From NCBI GenBank assembly GCA_001184205.1, contig LBMP01000004.1, forward strand, positions 385,755-449,754: a stretch of 64,000 bases of DNA. The letters run 5' to 3'. The notes under the pieces are model-generated. The model was not told the DNA's origin, did no database searches, and was given only the letters and a program-made list of their open reading frames with translations. Numbering within the stretch: position 1 is the first letter of the stretch; each line of letters opens with the position of its first letter. Source of the DNA: Desulfocarbo indianensis. Lineage in GTDB: Bacteria; Desulfobacterota; Desulfarculia; Desulfarculales; Desulfarculaceae. The position numbers and the translations under genes were made by a program. Shown in pieces: positions 5,133 through 55,652 of this stretch.

Positions 5133-5438
5133 ATGACTGCCAAAAAGATGATGAGCGTTGTTCTGGCCCTGGCCCTGGCCTTGGCCCTCAGCGCGGCGCC
5201 GGTGTTCGCCGCGGGCCAGGAAGTAATGGATGAATGGAACTGCCCAATGGATCAGAGCGGCGCCAAGGGCGGCGCGCCCACGGGCCAGGCCGAGCTGAAG
5301 GGTTCCCTGGCGCCCGGCGGCGGCAGCAACATGAAGGGCAACTTCAGTGACGACAAGAACTGGAACCCCAATCCCCAGGTGACCAGCGGCGGCGGCAACT
5401 TTGACGGCAATTTCGGCAAGAACGCCGATTGGAAGTAA
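5133..5438 (+). CDS. Small secreted Gly/Asn-rich protein
   Basis: A 101-residue protein with a clear Sec signal peptide: MTAKKMM, then a Leu/Ala-rich core, then APVFAAG with likely cleavage after Ala at about residue 27. The mature part (about 74 residues) is rich in Gly, Asn, Lys and Asp and contains two related phrases, GSNMKGNFSDDKNWNP and GNFDGNFGKNADWK, suggesting a short internal repeat of type NF-(S/G)-(D/K)-(D/N)-x-(N/D)W. One cysteine remains in the mature part. No family recognised. It stands alone between a sigma-54 promoter and a strong hairpin terminator, so it is a monocistronic, activator-controlled envelope or exported protein. Confidence 0.75.
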   Translation: MTAKKMMSVVLALALALALSAAPVFAAGQEVMDEWNCPMDQSGAKGGAPTGQAELKGSLAPGGGSNMKGNFSDDKNWNPNPQVTSGGGNFDGNFGKNADWK

Positions 5439-5454
5439 ACTAGCGATCCTCCCG

Positions 5455-5496
5455 TGCCAGGCCAGGCGATCCCCAAGCCACGCGCTTGGCCTGGCA
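5455..5496 (+). terminator. Hairpin terminator of the small secreted protein gene
   Basis: A perfect 10-bp inverted repeat, TGCCAGGCCA at 5455-5464 and TGGCCTGGCA at 5487-5496, lies 17 bases after the stop codon. It has a 22-base loop that can extend the stem and no marked T-run. Bases 5497-5720 hold no gene. Confidence 0.55.
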
Positions 5497-5720
5497 AACA
5501 AGCCAATACCCGGCGCGGGGTTCCGGGGCCATGGTCGCCGACTACTCCCTGTGTCATTAAGACCGTAACAAAATTGGTTGGATCATCCGGCTAATGAAAG
5601 GCGGCCCCGGCCCCGCGCCGTTATCCCCCCGCCAAGCCCCTATCCCGGCGGAGCAGCCCCCCCAATAAAAACCAGGGCCAAGGCTTATCCCGCCCGGCCC
5701 GCGCCGCCCCGCCCGATCAA

Positions 5721-6668
5721 TCACATGGCGTCCAATGCCTGCGCCAGCCCGATCTTGTTGGAGACGCCCAGCTTTTTATAGATGGATTCCAGGTGGCGGC
5801 GCACGGTGGAGGGTGACACGCCCAGTTCACCGGCCAGTTCCAGGTAGGTCATGCCGCTGGCATAATGGCGCGCCACCTGCTCCTCCCTGGGGGTCAAGAG
5901 GCTGGCGGCTCCGCTGGGCTGGCCTTGCAGCAGGATCAGGTCCTCCAGCAGGTCCGCGCTCAGCGCCAGGCGTTTCCCCTTGTAATCCGGCTGACCGGGC
6001 GCGGAGAGCCAGGAGACCAGCGGCTTGGGAAGCATGGGCGCTTTCCAGCCGGGCCATTCGGCTAAAAGCAGGGCGAGGAACTCGGCGTCCGCGTGGCGGA
6101 GCAGGCCCTGGCGGTCGCAGATGGCGGCGGCCAGGCTGGGTTCGCCGCCGGAGAGGCTTTTCAGGTGGGCGATCTGGTTTTGGTGCCAAACATCGATCAT
6201 CAAGGGAAACACGAACTGCTTGAGCGCCCGCTGCCGGGGGCTGAACTCCGGCTGGCCGGGCTTGCGGTACAGGCTCATCACCTCCATCAGCCCGCTATCC
6301 GGGTTGGGGATGGCGGTGGAGATGGCGCTTTCAATGCCGTAATGGGCCGAGTGTTGTTTATATATCTCCAGGCTGGGGCGCTCGTGGCGGCTGTAAAAAT
6401 CGTACACGTCGCAGGTCAGGCCGGGGTTGGCCATGATATGGGCCAAGAGCCGGTCCTGGTGCTTGTATTGCTCCCAGTTCTCCATCATTTCGGCGGGCAG
6501 CTTGTGCAGGTAGGCATTGTGCACGCTCAAGCCCTGGGTGTGGCCGCTGGCCCAAAGGGCGGTGTCAAAGGGAATGAGCCCGGCCAGGCGCTCCATGGCC
6601 GCCTGTTTCAAGGCAGCGGCCGGGGTGTGAAAACCGTCATGAATCAGGCCGCTTAGAAAGCTTTGCAT
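5721..6668 (-). CDS. LuxR-family transcriptional regulator
   Basis: A regulator of about 315 residues (up to 354 from an upstream TTG at 6785). The last 60 residues are a LuxR-type helix-turn-helix: LTPREEQVARHYASG, then LAGELGVSPSTVRRHLESI and YKKLGVSNK. The preceding 220 residues carry no receiver domain and resemble a PAS/GAF-like sensory region, so it is not a typical two-component regulator. The start is uncertain; ATG at 6668 is preferred because residues before it are low-complexity and Pro/Arg-rich, though no strong ribosome-binding site precedes it. It is divergent from the beta-propeller gene, its possible target. Confidence 0.8.
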   Translation of the reverse strand: MQSFLSGLIHDGFHTPAAALKQAAMERLAGLIPFDTALWASGHTQGLSVHNAYLHKLPAEMMENWEQYKHQDRLLAHIMANPGLTCDVYDFYSRHERPSLEIYKQHSAHYGIESAISTAIPNPDSGLMEVMSLYRKPGQPEFSPRQRALKQFVFPLMIDVWHQNQIAHLKSLSGGEPSLAAAICDRQGLLRHADAEFLALLLAEWPGWKAPMLPKPLVSWLSAPGQPDYKGKRLALSADLLEDLILLQGQPSGAASLLTPREEQVARHYASGMTYLELAGELGVSPSTVRRHLESIYKKLGVSNKIGLAQALDAM

Positions 6669-6986
6669 CTGGTCGTCGAGCACGGGGGGGCTCCGCCTTC
6701 CTGGCCTGGGGCAGGTGGGCCGGATAGCAAGGGTCATTGAGTCAGGGCTTTGCGCCGTCGGCTCCCATTGCCTCGCCACTATCAACCATGAATGTTCCGG
6801 GTTTTGCTTCCGGCCTCAGGCTTTTATCGCGGCATCGACGCGGTTATGGGGTGTTTATAGGGCATTTGCCCAATTGTATCCACTTTTATTAATTCGTAGA
6901 GTCCTCCACAAACAATCAGCAGGCCCCGCGGGAGATGTGGGGCCGAGTAACCAGGCTGGGAGCAAAACTTCTGAGGAGGACCAAAC
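6669..6986. other. Divergent intergenic region
   Basis: No gene is supported here beyond a possible N-terminal extension of the LuxR regulator. A small perfect dyad, GGGCA-TT-TGCCC at 6860-6871, could be an operator between the two divergent genes. GAGGAGG at about 6972 is the ribosome-binding site of the secreted propeller gene. Confidence 0.4.
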
Positions 6987-8189
6987 ATGGGGAGAGTTAA
7001 AGGTATTTTCATCGCGGCCCTAATCGCGCTGGCGGCCCTGGCCATCGGTGCTCCCGCCAGCCTGGCTTTGGCCGACGATCCAGGCACCATAAACGCCATC
7101 CGGGTGGACCCGGAGGTTCCGGGCGCGGTCTACGCGGCCACCAGCCAGGCCGGCGTGCTGAAAAGCGCGGACAACGGCGCGACCTGGACCGCCAAGAACG
7201 CGGGCCTGCCCAGCCGAACCATCCTGGACCTGGCCATTGACCCCTTCACGCCGGGCCGTATCTACATCGTCACCGAGAGCGGGGCCTTCCGCAGTGAAAA
7301 CGGCGGCGATTCCTGGAGCGCCCTTAACCTGAGCGATAAAGACGCGGTTTGCAGCGCCCTGGCGGTGGACCCGGTCACTCCCGGCCTGGTGTTCGTGGGC
7401 ACCCAGGGCAGCGGCGTCTTCGGCAGCGCCGACGCCGGCGATACCTGGACCTTTCTGGAAGGCGGCGCCATGCGGGGCGTGGGCGGCCTGGCTCTGACCA
7501 CCCTGGACCAGGCGCCGGCCATGGCGACCAGCGACAGCGTGGTCAAGGTCTTCAAGACCATGTACGTGATCGACAGCCAAGGCGTGTGGAAAAACATACT
7601 GGGATTTTCCGGGCTGCAATACCAAGGCAGGCTGGTATTAGAGCAGGAGTGGAACAAGATCGAAATGGAAAACAAGAAATTCATCTACGCCTTGCTGGCG
7701 CGGGCCTCGGTGAAGTATGACGGCAAGGCGGTCATCACCATCGGGGTGCACGAGGGCGGCCTCTATATGCTGGAGGATGGAACCGGCACCTGGCGCAAGA
7801 TCGAGACGCCGCAAAAAGACCCCAACATCAACGGCCTGGCCGGCAGCCCGGAGGACAGCGGCGCGGACAACGCGGCCGCGGCCGATCCGGCCCAGGATGT
7901 GCTCTACGCCTCCAGCTACGACGGCTTTGTCATGAAAGGCGTGGAACAGGACGGCCAATGGTCCTGGACCGAGCTGCTCAACGCGGGCATCTTGGGGGTG
8001 GGCGCGGTTCACCCCAAGATGGTGACCACCCAGGGCCTGACCAGTGCGGAGGGCGCCGTCTCCACCGCGCTGTGGGTGGGGACTTTTTCCTCGGAGGATG
8101 CCTCCGGCCCCATCCCGGCCACCATCTACCGCAGCCCGGACGACGGCCGCACCTGGAGCAACGTCCTGGCCGGCGGCTGGTCAGAATAA
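6987..8189 (+). CDS. Secreted beta-propeller (BNR/sortilin-like) protein
   Basis: A 400-residue exported protein. The signal peptide runs from MGRVKG through an Ala/Leu/Ile-rich core to LALADDP, with cleavage near residue 30. The mature part contains repeated blades of the type S-x-D-x-G-x-T-W (SADNGATWTA, SENGGDSWSA, SADAGDTWTF, SPDDGRTWSN), the Asp-box motif of BNR/sortilin-type and Ycf48-like propellers, with intervening D-P-x-x-P-G-x-(V/I)-Y/F strands. Such propellers bind proteins or glycans or act as assembly factors; the ligand is unknown. Ends at a hairpin terminator and appears monocistronic. Confidence 0.8.
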   Translation: MGRVKGIFIAALIALAALAIGAPASLALADDPGTINAIRVDPEVPGAVYAATSQAGVLKSADNGATWTAKNAGLPSRTILDLAIDPFTPGRIYIVTESGAFRSENGGDSWSALNLSDKDAVCSALAVDPVTPGLVFVGTQGSGVFGSADAGDTWTFLEGGAMRGVGGLALTTLDQAPAMATSDSVVKVFKTMYVIDSQGVWKNILGFSGLQYQGRLVLEQEWNKIEMENKKFIYALLARASVKYDGKAVITIGVHEGGLYMLEDGTGTWRKIETPQKDPNINGLAGSPEDSGADNAAAADPAQDVLYASSYDGFVMKGVEQDGQWSWTELLNAGILGVGAVHPKMVTTQGLTSAEGAVSTALWVGTFSSEDASGPIPATIYRSPDDGRTWSNVLAGGWSE

Positions 8190-8210
8190 AGCCATAAGCG
8201 TATAAACACG

Positions 8211-8245
8211 CGCCCCTCGGTCCGTTTGGGCCGGGGGGCGTTTTC
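8211..8245 (+). terminator. Intrinsic terminator after the propeller gene
   Basis: CGCCCCTCGGTCC pairs with GGCCGGGGGGCG (one bulge and one G-U pair) around a short loop and is followed by TTTT. It lies about 20 bases after the stop. Bases 8246-8509 hold no gene that I can support. Confidence 0.7.
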
Positions 8246-8509
8246 GCGCCGCGGTTCATCCTTAACGCGGAGCGCCGCTTCTCAAAAAACCAGGGCCAAG
8301 GCTTATCCAGCCCGACCCCGGCGGCACCCAAGCCTTGTTTGAAGGCTGCCCTTCTCTTGCCCAGAAAACGCAACGCCTCGCCACCACAAACCCGAGTGCT
8401 GTCTCACACCATAGCATAGGTAGCTACATAATAGCTATCAAGATCGGCCCAAAAAATTGCATGGCGGGCGATTTTTTCCGGAGGCCAAAAAGTATTATAA
8501 TCCGCAACG

Positions 8510-9691
8510 ATGAGCCACACGCACGACATAATCGTAACTGGTCTGGGACCGGCCGGCGCCATGGCCGGGGCGACCCTGGCCCGCGCCGGGGCCAAGGTCT
8601 TGATCCTGGCCGGCCAGCCCGGCCACGTCAAACCCTGCGGCGGCTGCCTGAGCCGGCGCTGGGATTGGCTGCTCAGGGAGCTGGGCCTGCCCGCCTGGGT
8701 TTGGCGGCATCCGGTCAGGCGGTTGTGGCTGGCCGCGCCCCTGCAGCCCCCGGTCCATTGGCAGAGCCGCGAGGTGGGCGCTTATCTGGTGGACCGCGCC
8801 CGCTTCAACCAGGCCCTGGCCCAGGCCGCGCTGGAGGCCGGAGCCGAGGTGATCCAGGCGCGGGCGCGGGAGGCGCTGCCCCGCCCCGGAGGCTTTGCGG
8901 TGAAAAGCCGGGTTGGCGATTTTTCCTGCGGCTGGCTGGTGGCGGCCAGCGGGGCGGGCGGGGCGCAGGCCTTGGGCCTGGTCCCCCCCCAAATAGGGCT
9001 GCTTTACCGCGCCATCGTGGAGGAGCGGCCCCTGCCCGCCCGGCTGGAGCCCATCATGCGGGATGCCGCGCTAATAGAGCTGGGAGGCGTGCCCGGCGGC
9101 TATGGCTGGGCCTTCGCCCGGGGGGATACCCTCAACCTGGGCATGGGCTTTTGGCAGGGCAACGGCGGGCCGGGCGGCTATTCCGAAAGCACCGCCGGGC
9201 TGGCCAGGGCCTATCAGAAATTCATCAAGCGTCACGGCTTGGAGCCGGCCCACGGCTGGCGGGGCTGGGTGATCCCCTGCCCGGACGGCAAGCCGCCGCA
9301 AGTGGTGAGCGGCAGGGCCTGCCTGGCGGGCGACGCCGCCGCCACGGGCGATCCCTTTTTGGGCGAGGGCATGGGCCAGGCGCTCTACAGCGGCCGCCTG
9401 GCGGCCCAGGCCATCCTGGCCGGCGATCTGGGGCAATACCAGGCGCGCATGGGGGGCCTGTGGCGGGAGCATCGGCACGGCAGGCTTCTGGCCCGGCTCA
9501 TCTACGGCTGGCCCGGATTGTTCCAGCGCCTGGCCCAGGCCAGGCCCGGCGCGGTGGAGTTGGGCTTCAACGTGCTGCGGGGGGAACTGGCCCAGGCCGG
9601 CATTTGGCGGGCGCTAGGGGCCAAGCTTAAGGGAAGGGAGCCCGCCCTTGACCTGCAAGCTAGAGGATACTATAGTAAGCACTTGAACTGA
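8510..9691 (+). CDS. Geranylgeranyl-reductase-family FAD oxidoreductase
   Basis: A 393-residue flavoprotein. The dinucleotide-binding motif near the N terminus is VTGLGPAGAMAGATLARAG, and the second FAD motif, GDAAATGDPFLGEGMGQAL, is the characteristic GDAAG-type signature of the geranylgeranyl reductase/digeranylgeranylglycerophospholipid reductase family. PCGGCLSRRW near residue 45 is also typical. Members saturate isoprenoid chains or act on quinone-like substrates; the substrate here is not determinable. The start ATG at 8510 lacks a strong ribosome-binding site. It is followed after 23 bases by the ftsB-like gene. Confidence 0.8.
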   Translation: MSHTHDIIVTGLGPAGAMAGATLARAGAKVLILAGQPGHVKPCGGCLSRRWDWLLRELGLPAWVWRHPVRRLWLAAPLQPPVHWQSREVGAYLVDRARFNQALAQAALEAGAEVIQARAREALPRPGGFAVKSRVGDFSCGWLVAASGAGGAQALGLVPPQIGLLYRAIVEERPLPARLEPIMRDAALIELGGVPGGYGWAFARGDTLNLGMGFWQGNGGPGGYSESTAGLARAYQKFIKRHGLEPAHGWRGWVIPCPDGKPPQVVSGRACLAGDAAATGDPFLGEGMGQALYSGRLAAQAILAGDLGQYQARMGGLWREHRHGRLLARLIYGWPGLFQRLAQARPGAVELGFNVLRGELAQAGIWRALGAKLKGREPALDLQARGYYSKHLN

Positions 9692-9714
9692 CGGCCTTCT
9701 TCAGGGAGGAGCCC

Positions 9715-10107
9715 TTGACGGGCGCGGAACGGCAAAATGTCTCTGGCGGCCCGGCGGGCGTTGGGCTGGTCGGCTACTGGTGGCCGGTCATCTTGTTGGC
9801 GGTGGTGGTGATCTGCGGATTCACCCTGTACCGGGGCTTCACCAATTTCAACAAGGTGCAGGACGAGCTTTACCAGGTGCGCCAAACCAACCAGCGCCTG
9901 GACGCCGAGAACCGGGCCCTGTACCGCAAGGTCCAGCGCCTGCGCGGCGATGCCAAGGCCCAGGAATTGGCGGCCCGCAAGGACATGGGCCTGCTGCGTC
10001 CCGATGAGGTGGTTTACGGCGAGGCAACGGCCCAGGCCGCGGCGGCCGCTCCTCTCCAGGCCGGCGCGGCCCGTCCGGCCGCCCAATCCACTCGAGGCGG
10101 GGAGTAA
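9715..10107 (+). CDS. FtsB/DivIC-like septum formation initiator
   Basis: A 130-residue single-pass protein. A hydrophobic helix at about residues 22-40 is followed by a coiled coil with regular heptads (VRQTNQRLDAENRALYRKVQRL), the layout of FtsB/DivIC, which bridges FtsL and FtsQ at the division site. The C-terminal 35 residues are an Ala/Gly-rich tail. The start is TTG at 9715, with AGGAGG placed seven bases upstream. It is directly followed by the TPR gene (5 bases) and then efp, suggesting one transcript. Confidence 0.7.
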   Translation: MTGAERQNVSGGPAGVGLVGYWWPVILLAVVVICGFTLYRGFTNFNKVQDELYQVRQTNQRLDAENRALYRKVQRLRGDAKAQELAARKDMGLLRPDEVVYGEATAQAAAAAPLQAGAARPAAQSTRGGE

Positions 10108-10112
10108 GGCCC

Positions 10113-10679
10113 ATGCCTGAAAACGCTGCCGAACTGTTTCTCCTGGAAGCCTGGGTGGCCGACAACCCCGGCTCCCGGCTTTTCCTCAAACTGGCCCAGG
10201 CCTATCAACAGGCCGGCCGCCTGGAGGAAGCCGCCCAGGTGCTGCAGCGGGGCCTGGTCATGCATCCGACCATGGTGGAGGCCCGTCAGGCCCTGGCCGA
10301 GGTCTTGAAGGCCATGGGCCAGCGCGAAAAGGCCCTGGACCAACTCATGGCCGCGGCCTCGGAGCTTTGCCGCCACGCCGGGGTGTTCAACGGCCTGGCC
10401 GACCTTTGGCGCGACCAGGGCCTGGAGAGCCAGGCCCAGGAAGCCAAGGAACTGGGCAACGCCCTGACCAGGGGCCTTAACGGCCTTTGCCAAGGGCAGG
10501 CCGCTCCCGCGCCCCCCGCCGCCGGCGGCAAGCCGCCCGCCGGCGCGCGCATGGCTCCCCCAGCCCCGGCCGAGCCCTTGGAACCTCCTGAACCTGTCTC
10601 CCCGCGCCGAGGCCCCGAGATGCTCTTGGAGCGTCTGCGGGCCATGGAGAGCGCGGCGCGGCGGCGGGTGCGAGGCTGA
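10113..10679 (+). CDS. Tetratricopeptide-repeat protein
   Basis: A 188-residue protein with about three TPR units at residues 15-125, for example NPGSRLFLKLAQAYQQAGRL and KAMGQREKALDQLMAAAS. The C-terminal third is a Pro/Ala-rich linker ending in a short basic helix (MLLERLRAMESAARRRVRG). No signal peptide, so a cytoplasmic protein-interaction factor is likely. Positioned between the ftsB-like gene and efp. Confidence 0.75.
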   Translation: MPENAAELFLLEAWVADNPGSRLFLKLAQAYQQAGRLEEAAQVLQRGLVMHPTMVEARQALAEVLKAMGQREKALDQLMAAASELCRHAGVFNGLADLWRDQGLESQAQEAKELGNALTRGLNGLCQGQAAPAPPAAGGKPPAGARMAPPAPAEPLEPPEPVSPRRGPEMLLERLRAMESAARRRVRG

Positions 10680-10732
10680 CAGCGGCTTCCTCCCGGTTTC
10701 CTTTTAACCTTAATCAACACAGAGGCATTACG

Positions 10733-11290
10733 ATGTATAGCACCGCGGAGTTCCGTAGGGGGCTCAAGATTGAAATTGATGGCAAGCCGTACGTGATCGT
10801 GGAGTTCCAGCACGTGAAGCCCGGCAAGGGCGGCGCCTTTGTGCGCACCAAGCTAAAGAACCTGGAAACCGGCCAGGTGCTGGAGCAGACCTTCCGTTCC
10901 GGGGCCAAGGTGGACAAGCCCGACCTGGAGGAGCGCTACATGCAGTACCTCTACCAGGAAGGCGAGCAGTACGTGTTCATGGACACCCAGAACTACGACC
11001 AGGTGTTCGTGGTCGCCGATTACCTGGGCGACGCGGTGAATTTCATGTACCCTAACATCGAGGTGCAACTCAGCTATTTCAACGGCAAGCCCATCGGCGT
11101 GGAACTGCCCACCTCGGTGGTGCTGGAGGTGACCCAGACCGAGCCCGGCGTCAAGGGCGACACCGCCACCGGCGCCACCAAGCCGGCCATTTTGGAGACG
11201 GGTTTTTCCGTGCAGGTGCCGCTTTTCGTCAACGAGGGCGACAAGCTCAAGATCGACACCCGAACCGGAGAGTACATAGAGCGTGCTTAG
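10733..11290 (+). CDS. efp: Translation elongation factor P
   Basis: 185 residues, the family's usual length, with three OB-like domains. EF-P binds the ribosome between the P and E sites and relieves stalling at polyproline. The modification loop reads VKPGKGGAF near residues 31-38, with the lysine that is beta-lysylated or otherwise modified in many bacteria; no modification enzyme gene is in this window. The C-terminal signature ends in a KIDTRTGEYIERA-type sequence, as expected. The last eight bases overlap the next gene. Confidence 0.95.
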   Translation: MYSTAEFRRGLKIEIDGKPYVIVEFQHVKPGKGGAFVRTKLKNLETGQVLEQTFRSGAKVDKPDLEERYMQYLYQEGEQYVFMDTQNYDQVFVVADYLGDAVNFMYPNIEVQLSYFNGKPIGVELPTSVVLEVTQTEPGVKGDTATGATKPAILETGFSVQVPLFVNEGDKLKIDTRTGEYIERA

Positions 11291-45331: not shown

Positions 45332-45703
45332 CTAAAGGGCCTTTTCGCCGGCTTCGCCAGTGCGAACCCGGATGGCGTCGGAGACGGGCAGCACGAAAAT
45401 CTTGCCGTCTCCCGGCTTGCCGGTCTGGTTGACTTCGATCAAGGTCTGAACCAGGGCGTCCACTTGGTCGTCGTGCACCACCATGGTCAGCATGCGCTTG
45501 GCGTAGAGCTTGCCGTTTTCGCCCAGGAGGGCTATGGCCTCCTCGTAGCCGGCCTTGGCTCCGGCCAGTATCTTGCTGTCCACCAGCCCCTTGCCGCGCC
45601 CCTGGCACTCATGGGCGAACATGGAATCCACGCCCACCTCGGTGAGGGCCTTCTTGGTCTGGTTCATGGTGTTCATGCGCACCACGGCGATAACCTCTTT
45701 CAT
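45332..45703 (-). CDS. nifI2: NifI2, PII-family nitrogenase regulator
   Basis: 123 residues of the GlnB/PII superfamily. With NifI1 it forms a complex that binds the MoFe protein and blocks Fe-protein docking when nitrogen is sufficient; 2-oxoglutarate relieves this, as shown in methanogens. Visible features are the N-terminal strand MKEVIAVVRMN, the T-loop region CQGRGKGLVDSKI and the C-terminal GDGKIFVLPVSDAIRVRTGE. Its ATG overlaps the nifI1 stop by 4 bases. The position between nifH and nifD is diagnostic. Confidence 0.93.
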   Translation of the reverse strand: MKEVIAVVRMNTMNQTKKALTEVGVDSMFAHECQGRGKGLVDSKILAGAKAGYEEAIALLGENGKLYAKRMLTMVVHDDQVDALVQTLIEVNQTGKPGDGKIFVLPVSDAIRVRTGEAGEKAL

Positions 45704-46056
45704 GCCGAGGCCTCCTGTTCCACGGGGGCGGTGTCGCAGACGCCGGAACTGATGGTGTAGACGTCTTCCACGTCGCTGATGAAAATCTTGCCGTCGCCAA
45801 AGGCGCCCTTGCCCTCGCTGCGGGCGGCCTGCATGATGGTCTTCACCACGAAGTCCTTGTCTTCGGCCTTGATCACGCTCATCAGCATGGTCTTGGGGAT
45901 TTCGTCATAGGTGACTTGGCCGATCTTGATGCCCCGCTGCTTGCCGCGGCCGGCCACGGCGTACTTGGTGACCGAGGGGAACCCCGCGTCCATCAGGGCC
46001 TTAAGAACCTCGTCGGCCTTCTCCGGTCTCACGATTGCTCTCACCATGATCATCAT
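45700..46056 (-). CDS. nifI1: NifI1, PII-family nitrogenase regulator
   Basis: About 118 residues of the PII superfamily: VRAIVRPEKADEVLKALMDAGF, T-loop AGRGKQRGIKIGQVTYDE and GDGKIFISDVEDVYTI. It partners NifI2 in post-translational switch-off of nitrogenase. Three closely spaced ATGs (46056, 46053, 46047) are possible starts; AAGGAA lies 6 bases before the first. It follows nifH by 32 bases. Confidence 0.93.
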   Translation of the reverse strand: MMIMVRAIVRPEKADEVLKALMDAGFPSVTKYAVAGRGKQRGIKIGQVTYDEIPKTMLMSVIKAEDKDFVVKTIMQAARSEGKGAFGDGKIFISDVEDVYTISSGVCDTAPVEQEASA

Positions 46057-46088
46057 TTGGTTTTCCTTCTTGTCGCCGGCCGGGCCGG

Positions 46089-47340
<1,252 letters not shown>

Positions 47341-47398
47341 TAGCGCCGCGATTCAAGCCCGCGGCCAAGGATGCCAAAGCCGCCAGCGCGCGGCGCTA
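47341..47398 (-). terminator. Long inverted repeat overlapping the nifA stop
   Basis: TAGCGCCGCG at 47341-47350 and CGCGGCGCTA at 47389-47398 are perfect complements around a 38-base GC-rich interior that can fold further. The right arm includes the nifA stop codon (47396-47398). On the minus strand CTACGTTTTC follows. A terminator separating nifA from nifH is the likely reading. Confidence 0.5.
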
Positions 47399-49036
47399 GC
47401 CGTGCACCAGGCGATGGCGCTCCTTTTTGACTTTTTCTTCCAGGCCGTACTTCCTGAGACGGTATCCCAGCTTGCGCAGGGTGATGCCCAAATCCTGGGC
47501 GGCCCGCGACTGCACCCAGCGGTTGCGCTGCAAGGCTTCCAGCAGTTCGGAGCGTTCCAGGTCTTCCAGCCTGGAGCCGGGCGGGTTTTCCTCTCCGCCG
47601 GCCTCCTCGCCGTTGTGGCTGGCCAGGATGAACCTGGGCAGGTCGTCGCGGCGGATCACGTCCTGCTCCACCATTATGGCCAGGCGCTCCATGATGTTTT
47701 CCAGCTCCCGCACGTTGCCCGGCCATTGATAGGTCAAGAGCGCCCTTTGCGCCGGGCGGTCTATGGTCAGGCGGCGGTTGTACTCCTGGGAGTTTTTCTC
47801 CAGGAAATAATTGATCAGCAGGGGGATGTCATCCACCCGCTCCCGCAAGGGCGGCAGGTGCAGGGGAAACACGTTCAAGCGGTAATACAGGTCCTGCCGG
47901 AACTCCTTGCCCTCCACCAGGGCCGGCAGGTTCTGGTTGGTGGCGGCGATTATGCGCACGTCCACCTTGCGGGTTTTGGGCGAGCCCAGACGCTCGAATT
48001 CCTTGTCCTGCAAAAAGCGTAAGAGCTTGGCCTGCAGGGCGATGGGCATCTCGGCGATCTCGTCCAGGAATATGCTGCCGCCGTCAGCCTCCTCGAAACG
48101 CCCCGGCTTTTCGTCGGTGGCCCCGGTGAAGGCTCCCTTGGCGTGGCCGAACAGCTCGGACTCCAGGAGGTTCTCCGGCAGGGCCGCGCAGTTGATCTTA
48201 ACGAAGGGGCCTTCCGCGCGGCCGCTCATCTCGTGGATGATGCGGGCCACCAGGGTCTTGCCGGTGCCGGATTCGCCCAGGAGCAGCACCGAGGCCTTGG
48301 CCGGGGCCACTTTTTTCAGCATGTCCTGCAGGGCGCTCATGGCCGGGCTCTTGCCCACGATGAAAAAGTCATTGTACAGGTCCGAGATCTCGTCCCGGAG
48401 CTGCTTGTTCTTGCGGCGCAGCAATTCCTCGCGCTGCTCCACCAGCCGGTTGAGCTGCACCAATTGGCCGATGATCTGGGCCACGATGCTGAGGAAGCGG
48501 ATGTCCTCGAAGGCCGACACCTCCTCGCCGAACAGGCGGTCCACGTTGAGCACCCCGATGGGTTCGCCGTGCAAGAGGATGGGCACCCCCACGAAAGCCA
48601 CCTGGCCCTTGTCCAGGTCCCGCGACTGGGTCTTGTTCAGGAACAGGGGCTCCCGGCTGACGTCGGGCACGTAAAAGGGCTTGGCGGTTTCGAAGATGCG
48701 GCCGGTGACGCCCTCGCCCTGGCTGTAGACGCCGCGCTTCATCTCCTGGGGAGTGAGCCCGTGGGAAGCGAAGATGGCCAAACCGCCGGTGCGCCGGTCG
48801 CGCAGGGTGACCGTGGCCCGCTTCATGGAGAGGGTTTCGGAAATTATGGCCAGCACCCGGTCGAGGGTCTGGGAAAGGTTGAGAGCTTCGCCGATTATGC
48901 GGCTGATCTCAAACAAGACCCTTAATTCGAGTTCTGTAACCCTGGCGCGCATATTGGACTCATCAGCCGTTTGAGGAGGAGCCTGGCCATATTGGCCGGC
49001 AAATTCATACAAATTGGGAAAAGTTCTTAAGCTCAT
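47396..49036 (-). CDS. nifA: NifA, sigma-54 activator of nif genes
   Basis: About 546 residues. Domain order: N-terminal GAF domain (about 45-195), AAA+ domain with Walker A GESGTGKT, the sigma-54 loop GAFTGA and FLDEIAEMP, and a C-terminal Fis-type helix-turn-helix ([21 protein letters not shown]). The linker between AAA+ and DNA-binding domains has no cysteines, so it is not the redox-sensing NifA type of rhizobia. ATG at 49036 or a TTG at 49063 may be the start; neither has a strong ribosome-binding site. The position upstream of nifH and the architecture support NifA over NtrC or VnfA. Confidence 0.9.
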
Positions 49037-49063
49037 GATTTTGGGGCGCGATAGCCCGGGCAA

Positions 49064-49830: not shown

Positions 49831-51387
49831 CTACTTTGGCTTTTTATTGTGATTGGCTTTGGGCCCATCGTAATCGAGCCGCTTTTGAGTCGTGGTGGTG
49901 GTCAACTCCAGGGCGGCGTCGGTTTGGAAGGTGGACATGGTTTTCGAAAGCTGGGCGGATTTGCCCGCGTTCACCTGGGTGGCTTTGTCAATGCTCTGCA
50001 AGGTGGTGTTGATCTGATCGATATCCTGGCGCTGCCGCTCGGAGGAATCCGCCACCGTCTCCATGAGCGCGCTGGCCTGGTTGATGGTTTCCCGCACCTC
50101 GCCGAAAACCACGTTGGTCTCTTGCACCAGGGAGGTGCCGCTGTCGATCTGGCTGATGGTCCCCTCGACGATCTCCGAGGTATTGCGGGCGGCCTCGGCT
50201 GCCCGCGACGCCAGGTTCCTGACCTCGTCGGCCACCACCGCGAAACCGGCCCCGGCCTCGCCGGCCCTGGCCGCCTCCACCGCGGCGTTCAAGGCCAGCA
50301 GGTTGGTCTGCATGGCGATCTCGTCGATGGTCTGCATGATCTTGGCCACCTGGCCGCTGGCTTGCGAGAGCTCGACCATGGATTTTTCCAACACGCCCAC
50401 TTTTTCATCCGCCTCGATGACCCCAGAGCGGACCGATTTCATCAGCTCGTGGGCCTCGTGGGCGTTATCGGCGTTTTTTCTGGCCAGGGCGGCGATGGCC
50501 GCGGAGGAGTTGGTGATCTCGTCCAGGGCGGTGGCGCTGCTGTCCGTATTGGTCCCGATGGCCACGGCCACGGCCTGGGCCTGGCCGATGATTTTGTTCA
50601 GCTTGCTGACGAAGCGGTTCAACAACTGGGCCACCCGGCCGATTTCGTCCTTGGACTGAACCGGAATCTGCAGGGTCAAATCCACGTCGTATTGCTTCAA
50701 GGCCTCCACCAGGCGGTCCATGGGAACCGCCACGAAGCGGCGGACGGTCACGAACATGCCCAGCACGAAAATCACCACCACCGCCAGGACGCCGATTCCC
50801 ATTGAGTAAAACGAGCTGGCCTGGATGGAGGCAAGGGTCTGCGCGGCGTCGGACCTGGCCTGCCGCAGCGCCTCGTTGGAGAACTTATAATAGGTCACGC
50901 CCCGTATTTCGCCGGATTTCCAGGAGGTGTGGCAGCGGATGCAGTCGGCCACCACCCGGTGGGGAATATATACTTCAAAGGCCTGGTCGGTCTCGTTGCT
51001 GATCTGTTTGCCGTCGCTGAATATCTTGGCCTTGACCTTCTTGTCCATCTCCCGGCCCACCCCGGCCGGCTTGGCCGAATGGGTGACCACTCCCTGAGCG
51101 CTGAAGAGAAACACCTCTTCCAAGCCCTTTACCTGCTGCAGCGACTCCAGCAGGTTGGTGAATTTGACCATCTCGCCGCGGACCAGCGAGCCTTCGATGG
51201 CCCGTTCCACGGTGTAATACAAGTTGGTGGCTTGCTTGCGCTCCTGCTTTTGCAAGAGTTCCAAGTTATGGTCGGAGAAGTTGGCGAACAAGCCGGACGT
51301 CCACACGTATTGCACCACTTGGGTGATCAGCACCGCCAGCACCAGAACCACGACCAGGGAGAGAATCAATTTCGTCCTAAGCTTCAC
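49831..51387 (-). CDS. Methyl-accepting chemotaxis protein with c-type heme sensor
   Basis: 518 residues. TM1 at about 7-28, a periplasmic domain to about 193, TM2 at 194-214, a HAMP region, and a cytoplasmic signalling domain with the conserved hairpin EIAMQTNLLALNAAVEAARAG at about 356-376. The periplasmic domain carries CIRCH (Cys149, Cys152, His153), a covalent heme c site just before TM2, as in the heme-PAS chemoreceptors of Geobacter. No C-terminal NWETF-like pentapeptide. The GTG start overlaps the hydrogenase small-subunit stop (GTGA), with GGGAGAG inside that gene as ribosome-binding site, so the two are translationally coupled. Hydrogenase-linked redox or H2 sensing is inferred. Confidence 0.92.
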   Translation of the reverse strand: MKLRTKLILSLVVVLVLAVLITQVVQYVWTSGLFANFSDHNLELLQKQERKQATNLYYTVERAIEGSLVRGEMVKFTNLLESLQQVKGLEEVFLFSAQGVVTHSAKPAGVGREMDKKVKAKIFSDGKQISNETDQAFEVYIPHRVVADCIRCHTSWKSGEIRGVTYYKFSNEALRQARSDAAQTLASIQASSFYSMGIGVLAVVVIFVLGMFVTVRRFVAVPMDRLVEALKQYDVDLTLQIPVQSKDEIGRVAQLLNRFVSKLNKIIGQAQAVAVAIGTNTDSSATALDEITNSSAAIAALARKNADNAHEAHELMKSVRSGVIEADEKVGVLEKSMVELSQASGQVAKIMQTIDEIAMQTNLLALNAAVEAARAGEAGAGFAVVADEVRNLASRAAEAARNTSEIVEGTISQIDSGTSLVQETNVVFGEVRETINQASALMETVADSSERQRQDIDQINTTLQSIDKATQVNAGKSAQLSKTMSTFQTDAALELTTTTTQKRLDYDGPKANHNKKPK

Positions 51388-52292
51388 TTGCTCTCTCCCT
51401 TTCTGTAAAAGGGCAGGGAAGGCGACTTGGCAAATATTTCAGAAGCGCATCCTATGCAAGGAGCCCCGGCCATGATGCAGGTGTTGGCGCCCCGGTTCCA
51501 CAACCGGGTGGTGCAATCGGCCTTGGTCACCGGACCCAGGCAGCCCAACTTGAACAAGCATCCCTCGCCGGAAAAAGTTTGGGCGAAATTTTCGCGCTCA
51601 TAATCAGCGAATCGCGGGCACTGATCGTGCAAAAAGCGGCCGTAGAACACCTCCGGCCTTCCGTCCTCATCCAATTTGGGCAGCCCGAACTTGATTACGT
51701 GCACCAGGGTTCCCACCACCCAATCCGGGTGGGAGGGGCAGCCGGGCAGCCTGATTATGGGGGCGGTGTTGCCTTCTTTTTTCAGGAATTCGGCCACACT
51801 GACAGATCCGGTGGGATTGTTTTCCGCGGCCGGAATGCCGCCATAGGCCGCGCAGGTGCCCACGCAGATTACGGCCTTGGCTTTTCTCGCGGCCCTGGCG
51901 ACCAGCTCGGTGACGGGTTTATGCCCCATGACGCAAGCTTGGGGCATGCCCGCGGGCAGGGCTCCTTCCACCGCCAGGTAGTAGCCTCCCGCCTCGATGG
52001 ACTTTTCCACCACCTCCATGGCCGTATGCCCGGTGGCGGCCGATAGGGTGGAATGAAACAGCAGGGATATATACTGGGTCAGCACTTCGCTGGGAGAGGG
52101 GTTTTCAGTATTCAGCAGCGATACCGAGCAGCCCGAACAACTCTGCCCCTGGAGCCAGAGCACCGGCGCCTGGCCCGAGGATAACTCGGACAGAGCCTCC
52201 ACTATGCGGGGGACGGACGCGGGTTCCAGCCCCATGGCCGCGGCCAGGCTGGCGCCCATCTTCAGGAATTGTCGTCGATTGAATTTGAACAA
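51384..52292 (-). CDS. Periplasmic [NiFe] hydrogenase small subunit
   Basis: 302 residues. A twin-arginine signal (NRRQFLKMGASLAAAMG) marks Tat export with the large subunit. Fe-S ligands are seen in QSCSGCS (Cys52, Cys55), GTCAAYGG and LPGCPSHPDW (proximal cluster), then HDQCPR, GEGCLFKLGCLGP and PCIGC (distal and medial clusters). There is no C-terminal hydrophobic anchor, so it is probably soluble or held by partners. TTG start at 52292, with AAAGGGAG just after the large-subunit stop. Overlaps the chemoreceptor start. Electron acceptor unknown; no cytochrome gene adjoins. Confidence 0.93.
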   Translation of the reverse strand: MFKFNRRQFLKMGASLAAAMGLEPASVPRIVEALSELSSGQAPVLWLQGQSCSGCSVSLLNTENPSPSEVLTQYISLLFHSTLSAATGHTAMEVVEKSIEAGGYYLAVEGALPAGMPQACVMGHKPVTELVARAARKAKAVICVGTCAAYGGIPAAENNPTGSVSVAEFLKKEGNTAPIIRLPGCPSHPDWVVGTLVHVIKFGLPKLDEDGRPEVFYGRFLHDQCPRFADYERENFAQTFSGEGCLFKLGCLGPVTKADCTTRLWNRGANTCIMAGAPCIGCASEIFAKSPSLPFYRKGESK

Positions 52293-52307
52293 GAATCTCC
52301 GCTCCCT

Positions 52308-53813
52308 TTAGTGAACAGCGCAGGCCAGACATGGATCAAAGGACCTGACCACCCGCGCGGCCTCCAAGGGGTTGTTGCTGTCCACCACCGGCGTTCCTTC
52401 CAAGGCTTGTTCCATTGGTCCGGGCACGCCGTTAGAGTCCCTGGGAGAGCCGTTCCATGTTGTAGGCACCACGCACTGATAATTCTTGATCTTGTGATCG
52501 GCTATTTCGATCCAATGCCCCAGGGCTCCTCTGGGCGCCTCGGTGAGTCCGGCGCCCTTCCCAGAAGCGGGGATTTCGAAATCCGTGAAAGTAGGTTGGC
52601 CGGGTTGCAGCTTATCCAGCCACTGCGCGCAGGCGTCGGCCACCAGCTTGCATTCCAGGGCCCGGGCGGCATGACGCCCCATGACCGAATCCAGGGCCGT
52701 GGCTTCCAGGCCGAGATCGCCGAGCAGCTTATCGATCATGGGCTTGGCCTGGGCGTGGCCCTTTTGGTGGGCGACCAGCATGCGGGCCAAGGGGCCCACC
52801 TCATAGGGCTGGCCCTCGTAACGGGGGGCCTTGAGCCAGGAATAGGCTCCCGGCTTATGGGGCGAGGGTTCGGTCTGGCCCTGGTAGGGGTGCAGCCCGG
52901 ATTGGGAGGAGAAAAAGGCATGGGAGGTGTCTTCGCTGATTTGGGCCGGATCAGTGGATGACAGCGCGCCCTGCTTGATTCTTCCGGCCGGCAGGAGATG
53001 CCCGCCGTTGTCCTGATCGAAAACGCCATAGGCTAAAAAGTTGCCGCAACCCCGCCCCACCTTGAAGTAGGCGGGGAAGGCCGAAGCCACGGCCACCACG
53101 TCCGGGATGTAGATCCGATCGATAAAGGAGCGCAGCCGGCTCAGGATGCTGCCGTAGGCGGCGATCTTCTTGGCCGTCACCTTTTCGGTTATACCGCCGG
53201 GAATGAGCGCGGTGGCGTGGGGGGCCTTGGCGCCGAACAGGGCCAAGGCCTCCTGGGCAACGGCGCGCATTTCCAGGGCATCCACGTAATCCTTGATGGC
53301 TCCGATGTTGGCATCCAGGTTTGGCAGGTAATCGCCATTGTAACGGGGAAGAAACGGGGCGGCCGGAAACATCGTTTGCGAATCGAGCTGGGCTTTAACC
53401 CAAGCCTGCAGCCCCTTCAGTGTGGCGTCCGATCCGCCGTAATTGAGAATAGCCGTGATATCAACGAAATCCAAAGCGGACAGATGATAGAAATGGACCA
53501 GGTGGGACTGAATATAATTGGCGCCCAGGATCAGGTTGCGGGTCAGCCGGCCGTTATCGGTGAGTGTGAGATTATAGGCCTGCTCCTGGGCCTTGAGCGA
53601 GGCCATGCCGTGGGAAATGGGGCAGACGCCGCAGATGCGCTGGGTGATCTGCTGGGCGTCCATGGGACTCCTGCCCCGCAGGATATTTTCAAAACCGCGG
53701 AACATCTCGCCGGAGCAATAGGCCTTTGCGACCTGCCCCGATTCGATCTCAAGTTTTATGGCGAGATGACCCTCGATGCGGGTCAAGGGATCGATTTCTA
53801 TTTTGGTCGGCAT
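52308..53813 (-). CDS. [NiFe] hydrogenase large subunit ending at the L2 histidine
   Basis: 501 residues. The Ni-Fe site ligands are Cys61 and Cys64 in RICGVCPISHG (L1) and Cys495 and Cys498 in DPCLACAVH (L2). The TAA stop follows directly after His501, so there is no C-terminal extension for the usual maturation protease to remove. The first L2 cysteine codon is TGT, not TGA, so this is not a selenocysteine enzyme. The gene comes before the small subunit, the reverse of the common order. No hyp maturation genes are in the window. Group 1-like by overall sequence and the Tat partner; exact class needs phylogeny. Confidence 0.93.
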   Translation of the reverse strand: MPTKIEIDPLTRIEGHLAIKLEIESGQVAKAYCSGEMFRGFENILRGRSPMDAQQITQRICGVCPISHGMASLKAQEQAYNLTLTDNGRLTRNLILGANYIQSHLVHFYHLSALDFVDITAILNYGGSDATLKGLQAWVKAQLDSQTMFPAAPFLPRYNGDYLPNLDANIGAIKDYVDALEMRAVAQEALALFGAKAPHATALIPGGITEKVTAKKIAAYGSILSRLRSFIDRIYIPDVVAVASAFPAYFKVGRGCGNFLAYGVFDQDNGGHLLPAGRIKQGALSSTDPAQISEDTSHAFFSSQSGLHPYQGQTEPSPHKPGAYSWLKAPRYEGQPYEVGPLARMLVAHQKGHAQAKPMIDKLLGDLGLEATALDSVMGRHAARALECKLVADACAQWLDKLQPGQPTFTDFEIPASGKGAGLTEAPRGALGHWIEIADHKIKNYQCVVPTTWNGSPRDSNGVPGPMEQALEGTPVVDSNNPLEAARVVRSFDPCLACAVH

Positions 53814-54294
53814 GAGAGGCAGCCCTATGTTGATTAGCGATTTCAGTCTTAGCCGAGGTCTTGAGCTTTGACATGATGGACTAGATGTGGGGGATCAGTC
53901 AATTTGTCTTTTTTATGATCGTTCTAAAAATGACGCTCCCCAATAGTGTGACGGTCAATTCTCGGGGATTACGCTCTCGGTATCGAAAAGGCTAATGCCG
54001 GACTGGCCCGCAATTGGGACCTGAAACCGTATTGTTAGCCAGACGGTAGTGCCTATGGATTGCTAGGATTTTTTTGTTGAAGCTCTATCTGGAACTCTGG
54101 AATCCACAACTGGTATGGCTGAAAGCGAGACGGTTGGGAGCGGATTGAAAAACCGGGTTAATAGCTTAAATTAATCGATAAAAAATACCTTTTTATTGTT
54201 ATGTGGCCGCGCCCCCGCATATTATTTGGGAAGGGGAATTCCGCCCCAAAGCGGCGATGCCCCTCCCCAAAGGGCCACGATGACGGGGAAAAAT
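53814..54294. other. Intergenic region upstream of the hydrogenase operon
   Basis: About 480 bases without a supported gene, more AT-rich toward 54170-54230. It should contain the hydrogenase promoter on the minus strand, but I could not identify one with confidence; no sigma-54 match was seen. Confidence 0.4.
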
Positions 54295-54326
54295 AAAAAG
54301 CCTGGGCGAAATCGCCCAGGCTTTTT
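54295..54326. terminator. Bidirectional terminator beside the attachment site
   Basis: AAAAAGCCTGGGCGA and TCGCCCAGGCTTTTT are perfect complements with A and T tracts on either side, so it can act in both directions. It lies 8 bases beyond the 3' end of the tRNA-Asn fragment and is probably the original terminator of the tRNA gene. Confidence 0.9.
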
Positions 54327-54455: not shown

Positions 54456-55652
54456 CTAATGATGAACTTTCATCATTTCTGAATAGAGGGGCGCAATCGA
54501 GGCCATGCCTTTGGTGTAGCGCTGGGTGGTGACGATGCTGGCGTGGCCCATGACGGCCTGGATCACGCGCTCTGACACGCCGTTGGCGGCCAACCAGGTG
54601 GCGGTGGTGTGGCGGGCGTCGTGCAAGTGGGCGTCCTGGATATCGGCCCGGCGGCAGGCCGCCTTGAACCAGCGGCTGATTACGCCGGCGGTCACCCTTC
54701 GCAGGCCCGGCGCCGGAGTCTTGGCCCATTTGCGCACCGCGGCTTCCGACACCCCGTAACGGCGGCCGATCTCAATGTTGCTGAGCCCCTCGGCCTGCAA
54801 AGCCTGGATTTCGGCCTGGTCCGGCCGCCGGCGGATCGGTGAAAACATGAAAACCGGGCCCACGTCCTTGATGCCGAAAACCGCCAAGGCTTCGGCCGCC
54901 TGGGGAAGAAGCGGCACCACGCGCTCTTTTTCGCCTTTGCCTTTGACCTGGCACCAGGGCTCAGGACCGTCCGCATGCACCTGGGGCCACTGGAGGCCCC
55001 AAAGCTCGGACAGGCGAAGCCCGGTCCAGAACGCGAACTGCCATAAGGCGCGGCGTTCGGGGTCCGGTTCGGCTTGCAGGAGCTTGTCCACTTCTTCCGG
55101 CAAAAGAGCGCGGGGCAAGAGCTCTGGGAGCTTCACCACCTTGCGGGGCTTGACCTTGGGCGGTCGTTCCAGGCAACGCCAATCGTCCTCGGCCGCTGTC
55201 TCCAGGGCGGCCAGGATATGACTCAGGTAGGAGCGCACCGTAAAGGGTGAGCGCCCCTGAGCCAACAGGGAGTTGGCCCACTCCTGAAGCCGTTTCTGGG
55301 TGATGGATCGTAAGAGGGTGCGCCGGCCCAGGCAGGCGATGAGGCTTTGCAGGGCTTTGGAATCCTGCTTGACCGTGTGGGGGCTGAGGCCGCCGCCCTT
55401 GCCCCGGCTAACTTGGGCCCGGCGGTGTTCCAGGTATTCATCCGCGAAGCGGTGCAGGGTTACGGTGGAGGGGTCCAAAAGGGCCAAGCGCTCTTTATAG
55501 CGGGCCTCTTCCATGGCGCTGGCCCGCTTTTGGGCTTCAAGCGGGTCTGCGGTCTCCAAGGAACGCACCACCAGCCGGCCGCGCACGCGCCAGCGCACGT
55601 AAAAGATGCCGTTGGCAGCGTCTCTGATATAAGGCTTGCCCATGGAGGTCAT
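54456..55652 (-). CDS. Tyrosine recombinase (integrase) with internal helix-turn-helix
   Basis: 398 residues. SAM-like core-binding domain at about 65-165, then the catalytic domain: Arg213 (TGLRLSE), Lys near 238-242 (KGKGEKER), His344 and Arg347 (HLHDARH), His370 (VMGHAS) and nucleophile Tyr379 (TQRYTKG). Between Lys and His344, residues about 276-316 contain LQAEGLSNIEIGRRYGVSEA, a resolvase/sigma-like helix-turn-helix not normal at this place. The N terminus resembles arm-type binding domains. It ends near the tRNA-Asn fragment, so it should catalyse integration there. Confidence 0.93.
   Translation of the reverse strand: MTSMGKPYIRDAANGIFYVRWRVRGRLVVRSLETADPLEAQKRASAMEEARYKERLALLDPSTVTLHRFADEYLEHRRAQVSRGKGGGLSPHTVKQDSKALQSLIACLGRRTLLRSITQKRLQEWANSLLAQGRSPFTVRSYLSHILAALETAAEDDWRCLERPPKVKPRKVVKLPELLPRALLPEEVDKLLQAEPDPERRALWQFAFWTGLRLSELWGLQWPQVHADGPEPWCQVKGKGEKERVVPLLPQAAEALAVFGIKDVGPVFMFSPIRRRPDQAEIQALQAEGLSNIEIGRRYGVSEAAVRKWAKTPAPGLRRVTAGVISRWFKAACRRADIQDAHLHDARHTTATWLAANGVSERVIQAVMGHASIVTTQRYTKGMASIAPLYSEMMKVHH

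Follow-up and report, generated by a model that had tools for sequence, protein, structure and literature searches.

A conserved [NiFe] hydrogenase and heme c chemoreceptor gene unit as a candidate for H2-sensing chemotaxis

A 64,000-nucleotide stretch of the Desulfocarbo indianensis genome (contig LBMP01000004.1, positions 385,755 to 449,754; here called the window) carries an operon in which the genes for the large and small subunits of a [NiFe] hydrogenase are followed by that for a chemoreceptor, a methyl-accepting chemotaxis protein (MCP) with a heme c motif in its periplasmic domain (Table 1). An original prediction, made from the DNA alone, had described one operon encoding a large subunit, a small subunit exported by the twin-arginine translocation (Tat) pathway, and a heme c chemoreceptor; the open reading frames, Pfam and NCBIfam models, and terminator-like stems agree with this layout. 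Since such stems bound the trio on both sides, the second lying at positions 54295 to 54326 upstream of the large subunit, the operon is taken to consist of three genes. The CIRCH motif is present at the receptor residues that the prediction had named. Also as predicted, the GTG start of the receptor gene overlaps the small-subunit stop, and its Shine-Dalgarno sequence, AAAGGGAGAG, is located within the final small-subunit codons. The overlap of start and stop is expected to couple translation of the two genes.

The large subunit matches PF00374 (NiFeSe_Hases) with 528 bits and NCBIfam model NF033181 (hydA) with 655 bits, which exceeds the model's cut-off (600). Both nickel ligand motifs are present, RICGVC near the N terminus and DPCLACAVH at the C terminus. 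The DPCLAC motif has a cysteine rather than a selenocysteine codon and the gene contains no TGA; thus, this is not a NiFeSe enzyme in the selenocysteine sense. In the small subunit we found PF01058 (Oxidored_q6), PF14720 (NiFe_hyd_SSU_C), and, above its cut-off, PF10518 (TAT_signal), together with all 12 ligands for three [4Fe-4S] clusters (proximal, medial, and distal). As in NiFeSe enzymes, the fourth medial ligand is a cysteine, and the nearest solved structures are NiFeSe small subunits (PDB 2wpn, 4.3e-70); a C-terminal membrane helix was not seen in the sequence. The receptor matches PF00672 (HAMP) and PF00015 (MCPsignal), 125 bits.

Table 1. Features of the hydrogenase-chemoreceptor operon, in window positions
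Feature	Positions	Strand	Description
[NiFe] hydrogenase large subunit	52308..53813	(-)	First gene; 501 amino acids; ends ...SFDPCLACAVH without C-terminal extension
Tat-exported small subunit	51384..52292	(-)	302 amino acids; TTG start; twin-arginine motif NRRQFLKM
Chemoreceptor (MCP)	49831..51387	(-)	518 amino acids; GTG start; transmembrane segment 1, periplasmic heme-c single-Cache/PAS domain, transmembrane segment 2, HAMP, MCP signalling domain
Heme c motif CIRCH	50929..50943	(-)	Receptor residues 149-153; seen in the sequence
Met73 codon	51169..51171	(-)	Proposed second axial heme ligand; role inferred
GTGA, 4-nucleotide overlap	51384..51387	(-)	Receptor start with small-subunit TGA; seen in the sequence
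Promoter-like site TTGACT-18-CATCAT	53873..53902	(-)	Upstream of operon; 9/12 consensus matches; consensus match only
Terminator-like stem-loop	49744..49770	(-)	After receptor gene; 10 pairs, 8 G-C

To see how far this arrangement extends, we scanned one genome per species plus 395 genomes of the phylum Desulfobacterota. The first relatives with the same trio came from one genome of the same family, whose small subunit is 71% identical, and from one distant genome of the phylum. Altogether, the scans recovered 37 distinct loci whose small subunits form one clade, delimited by profile scores of at least 343. The receptor gene adjoins the hydrogenase in all 35 loci with a readable flank; in the remaining two, the contig ends. 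A gene order arising by chance or confined to a single genome was rejected on this count, and the arrangement is far beyond chance. The prediction had proposed a search for co-occurring large-small-MCP neighbourhoods, with an order unique to this genome speaking against it; the triad proved to be conserved in at least seven phyla, namely, Desulfobacterota, Omnitrophota, Hydrogenedentota, Riflebacteria, Verrucomicrobiota, Lentisphaerota, and Planctomycetota (phyla as given in the record titles; most carriers are metagenome-assembled genomes). The genes of one locus (L048) run small-receptor-large, and another (L051) has its receptor frame interrupted in the draft assembly. The 4-nucleotide overlap of start and stop was seen in 10 loci. 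Sampled small subunits scoring below 343 are nearly all encoded in the order small-large, without such a receptor.

In the small-subunit tree, the receptor-linked clade has support of 100/99. Only one member, a second copy in L061, is not followed directly by a receptor; it sits beside an intact unit with two tandem receptors. This verrucomicrobial locus (L061:2441-4943 and 5353-11144) thus holds two divergent hydrogenase copies and two tandem heme receptors. Seven named carrier genomes also hold CheW-domain proteins. When all neighbours were compared with one another, no other gene, cytochrome genes included, proved to be conserved near the MCP-linked loci; hyp genes occur near the unit in a few loci only. 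A larger operon with cytochrome, hyp, or protease partners was rejected because these neighbours are not conserved across the MCP-linked loci.

The hydrogenase itself has unusual features. In 43/43 linked loci (the 37 above and 6 diverged ones described below), DPCxxCxxH is the very end of the large subunit, with 0 residues after it, whereas nearly all unlinked large subunits have 12 to 29 extra C-terminal residues or a selenocysteine codon. As a positive control, presumed HupUV pairs beside HupSL-type genes in Proteobacteria, identified by context only, also lack the extension. It is absent from the H2-sensing groups 2b and 2d and likewise from some group 4 enzymes (PMC7294309). The twin-arginine motif is found in small-subunit homologs too, and the cluster ligands are complete across linked homologs, one residue differing in L067. 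Around the distal cluster, from which electrons exit, basic residues of other enzymes are replaced in the linked ones: at position 252, 36/36 linked sequences have L/Q/A/V and 40/41 others K/R; at position 228, 36/36 have F/Y, versus R in 31/41.

Conservation of the receptor centers on the heme. All 30 heme-bearing sensors share C149, R151, C152, H153, R70, G71, and M73, and their motif takes the form C[ILVR]RCH. Reduced Geobacter heme sensors have an axial methionine (PMC8396549), and by analogy Met73 may be the second axial ligand here. Three members from the Planctomycetota-Verrucomicrobiota-Chlamydiota (PVC) branch have Ala, Ala, and Tyr at this position, and their heme cysteines are replaced where visible, the L063 sequence ending before them. 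These receptors, from Lentisphaerae and Phycisphaerae (L066:7966-9600, L067:7951-9525, and, probably heme-less as well, L063:5692-6039), lie beside the same hydrogenase.

An AlphaFold model of the sensor built from 18 sequences (predicted local distance difference test score of 82) has a single-Cache/PAS fold. Its fold matches are WalK, GSU0935, and GSU0582 (Foldseek, 2.5e-5 for 3b42 and 1.9e-6 for WalK), with alignments giving VIA Z values of 9.7 (root mean square deviation of 2.1, 77 residues aligned) and 13.2 (2.1, 132 aligned). These relatives came from the fold search; a sequence search of the PDB with the sensor profile returned nothing significant. Pairwise divergence of the sensor tracks that of the small subunit (r of 0.88, reached in 0/1000 permutations) and of the large subunit (r of 0.86), and that of its own signalling domain much less closely (r of 0.52). 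The inheritance of the sensor thus follows the hydrogenase more than the output domain to which it is attached. An AlphaFold fusion of the small subunit and sensor of L047, with the stop read through, gave a predicted template modeling score of 0.43, too low to be informative, and its tether has the wrong topology.

A second tier of relatives, found when the sensor profile was run against the phylum, shows that the output has been exchanged. Six diverged loci (L186 to L191) keep the large-small-sensor order. In L186 to L188 the sensors are MCPs. In L189 to L191 (genomes G251, G294, and G352), a sensor with two CxxCH motifs is combined with Hpt and HATPase domains, forming a diheme CheA-like kinase whose gene is followed by those for CheX and a CheY-like regulator; these three genomes hold an MCP-type unit too. 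Therefore, one type of input is connected with different chemosensory outputs, an MCP in some cases and a CheA-like kinase with CheX/CheY in others. A tree of both subunits places the receptor-linked enzymes in one clade (99% by the Shimodaira-Hasegawa-like approximate likelihood ratio test), which also includes one unlinked enzyme, L093. The same sensor family contains heme-c MCPs not paired with a hydrogenase (L192, L194 to L199, and L193:10681-12552).

Taken together, the missing extension, the lack of any other conserved gene, the exchange of outputs, and the parallel divergence of sensor and hydrogenase argue for a sensory and not a respiratory role, and H2 sensing by the three genes as a unit is well supported. 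The three genes probably form one H2-sensing chemotaxis unit, with electrons passing to the receptor heme and from there to CheA. In such a unit, the Tat-exported heterodimer would oxidize H2 in the periplasm, and electrons would run through the three [4Fe-4S] clusters of the small subunit, the distal one last, to the c-type heme of the receptor Cache/PAS domain, ligated probably by His153 and Met73. A change in heme redox state or ligation would then alter the signal sent via HAMP to the CheA/CheW complex, and cells would steer in H2 gradients. Direct reduction of the heme by the hydrogenase is likely; we infer this transfer, as well as a physical complex, the axial methionine, and the direction of the response.

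Several observations weigh against this interpretation. The linked hydrogenases are one clade, and their traits, shared by descent, therefore count as one event; an independent-pairs test of receptor linkage against absence of the extension yielded two pairs only, linkage having arisen about once. A Bacillota [NiFe] hydrogenase (L085:6890-9179) has neither an extension nor a receptor nearby, and therefore the absent extension alone does not prove sensing. Among the 25 high-scoring sensors in the phylum, 8 have no adjoining hydrogenase, although 7 of these are in genomes that hold a linked unit. The D. indianensis genome has five cytochrome c3 matches outside the window, and the heme-less branch (L066, L067, and probably L063) retains both hydrogenase and receptor.

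The cytochromes and the unpaired sensors would fit redox (energy) taxis, in which a respiratory uptake hydrogenase feeds diffusible cytochrome c3, the receptor reads how reduced the cytochrome pool of the periplasm is, in the way proposed for redox sensing by DcrA and GSU0582/GSU0935, and the operon merely co-expresses the two. In sulfate reducers, cytochrome c3 is the common partner of soluble periplasmic hydrogenases. Moreover, the signals to which known heme-c MCPs respond are redox potential or O2 (PMC8396549). We nevertheless regard this scenario as rather unlikely: it is opposed by the strict pairing in 35/35 loci, by a sensor that co-diverges with the hydrogenase and not with the signalling domain, by the lack of a conserved cytochrome gene nearby, by the altered distal-cluster residues, and by a large subunit without the maturation extension.

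The heme-less PVC branch bears on another alternative, sensing by protein contact. Here, an H2-driven change in conformation or cluster redox state would be passed on by direct binding, as proposed for HoxBC/HoxJ, while the heme tunes the response or secondarily reads O2 or redox state. Regulatory hydrogenase-kinase complexes are indeed thought to act through interaction (PMC6978683). Yet the heme motif and the probable axial methionine are invariant in all other members, and the kinase-linked relatives carry two CxxCH motifs, which makes this scenario improbable. Since the heme-less branch keeps the pair, heme reduction would not be the coupling step in every member. The original prediction that electrons from H2 reduce the receptor heme and signal to CheA thus holds as far as a sensing unit is concerned, and gives way on heme coupling in every member and on a sole electron partner. 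Its premise that cytochrome c3 and hyp genes are absent nearby was borne out, with zero matches in the window (HypD alone being searched among the Hyp proteins); its corollary, that the receptor heme is the only encoded electron partner, fails genome-wide given the five cytochrome c3 matches.

Elsewhere in the genome there are a HypD match, flagellins, 29 MCP signalling-domain matches, and several CheW/CheA-type proteins; the organism thus has the remaining machinery, namely, HypD, CheA/CheW-type proteins, many MCPs, and flagellins. Another [NiFe] large subunit (G000:C1:530268-531521; L003, L004, L043), next to an HdrA-like gene, has an in-frame TGA near its C terminus and is possibly a selenocysteine enzyme. 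Beside the operon, at window positions 45332 to 49063, lie nif genes encoding P-II-like regulators, NifH, and a GAF-sigma-54 activator resembling NifA. These genes would favor a role in H2 recycling, in which the operon takes up H2 made by nitrogenase and the receptor is incidental. We consider this very improbable, as the nif neighbourhood is not conserved in other loci, whereas the receptor is, and no sigma-54 site stands out near the operon. Control of the operon by sigma-54 and NifA was likewise rejected, since pattern matches do not exceed chance. A phage-type integrase gene lies just upstream of the operon (window positions 54456 to 55652); no tRNA gene was detected in the window.

How does this unit compare with known systems? 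HydDB lists [FeFe] group C2 as putatively chemotactic and MCP linked, and [NiFe] groups 2b and 2c as kinase or cyclase linked; as far as its table goes, an MCP-linked [NiFe] class is not listed (PMC5037454). Group C2, as characterized in that table, resembles the present unit in that the hydrogenase is thought to sense H2 and to signal via an MCP. It belongs, however, to an unrelated hydrogenase class with a different active site, whereas here a Tat-exported [NiFe] enzyme is combined with a heme-c transmembrane receptor. In group 2b (HoxBC/HupUV with the kinase HoxJ), an H2-sensing [NiFe] heterodimer is likewise paired with a signalling protein, and the large subunit also lacks the C-terminal extension (PMC7294309). 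By analogy, the present unit may work like group 2b. Yet HoxBC resides in the cytoplasm, and its target is a histidine kinase controlling transcription, while the present unit has a Tat signal, a large-small gene order, an NiFeSe-like small subunit, and a heme-c receptor; in addition, HupUV-like sequences (identified by context only) are far from the linked clade in the tree. Because two defining features, cytoplasmic location and tree position, do not apply, we did not place the unit in group 2b.

Periplasmic NiFeSe and group 1 uptake hydrogenases provide the closest family models and solved relatives. The present enzyme differs from them in having no selenocysteine codon or maturation extension, a reversed gene order, changed distal-cluster residues, and a receptor instead of a cytochrome partner. 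With regard to the receptor, its MCP signalling domain, periplasmic CxxCH domain, and PAS/Cache fold are those of a heme-c chemoreceptor, heme binding being predicted. DcrA, GSU0582, and GSU0935 are also MCPs with a periplasmic PAS/Cache-like domain and one c heme; reduced Geobacter sensors have the axial methionine, and the sensor fold matches 3b42 and 3b47. In contrast to the present sensor, which is co-inherited with a hydrogenase, these proteins sense redox potential or O2 and have no dedicated enzyme described.

A 2025 neighbourhood survey tabulates a cluster of 87 MCP genes within five genes either side of [NiFe] large-subunit matches (PMC12727194). This is a single undiscussed row, without heme, clade, or mechanism. 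In the open-access literature searched, we found no [NiFe]-MCP pair or H2-taxis receptor; this absence is weak evidence of novelty because only open-access literature was covered. The unit is a variant of sensory hydrogenases, and MCP-linked hydrogenases were found in the literature only as the putative [FeFe] group C2. On balance, we lean towards a class of sensory [NiFe] hydrogenases, periplasmic and so far undescribed, whose oxidation of H2 would directly reduce the c-type heme of a membrane-spanning receptor. Present across at least seven phyla and coupled either to MCPs or to a CheA-like kinase with CheX/CheY, it would be a portable module for H2 input and the first molecular candidate for [NiFe]-based H2 taxis.

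In anoxic habitats, H2 serves as a key currency, and chemotaxis toward it in sulfate reducers is merely supposed in recent work (PMC12004927). The unit described here offers a compact and genetically separable candidate, one enzyme and one receptor. If our interpretation is correct, the electron output of an enzyme serves as a sensory input, this one kind of input has been linked to more than one chemosensory output, and H2 taxis becomes testable by gene deletion. Overall, a conserved enzyme-receptor unit in many phyla suggests that the hydrogenase is used to sense H2 and to steer by it.

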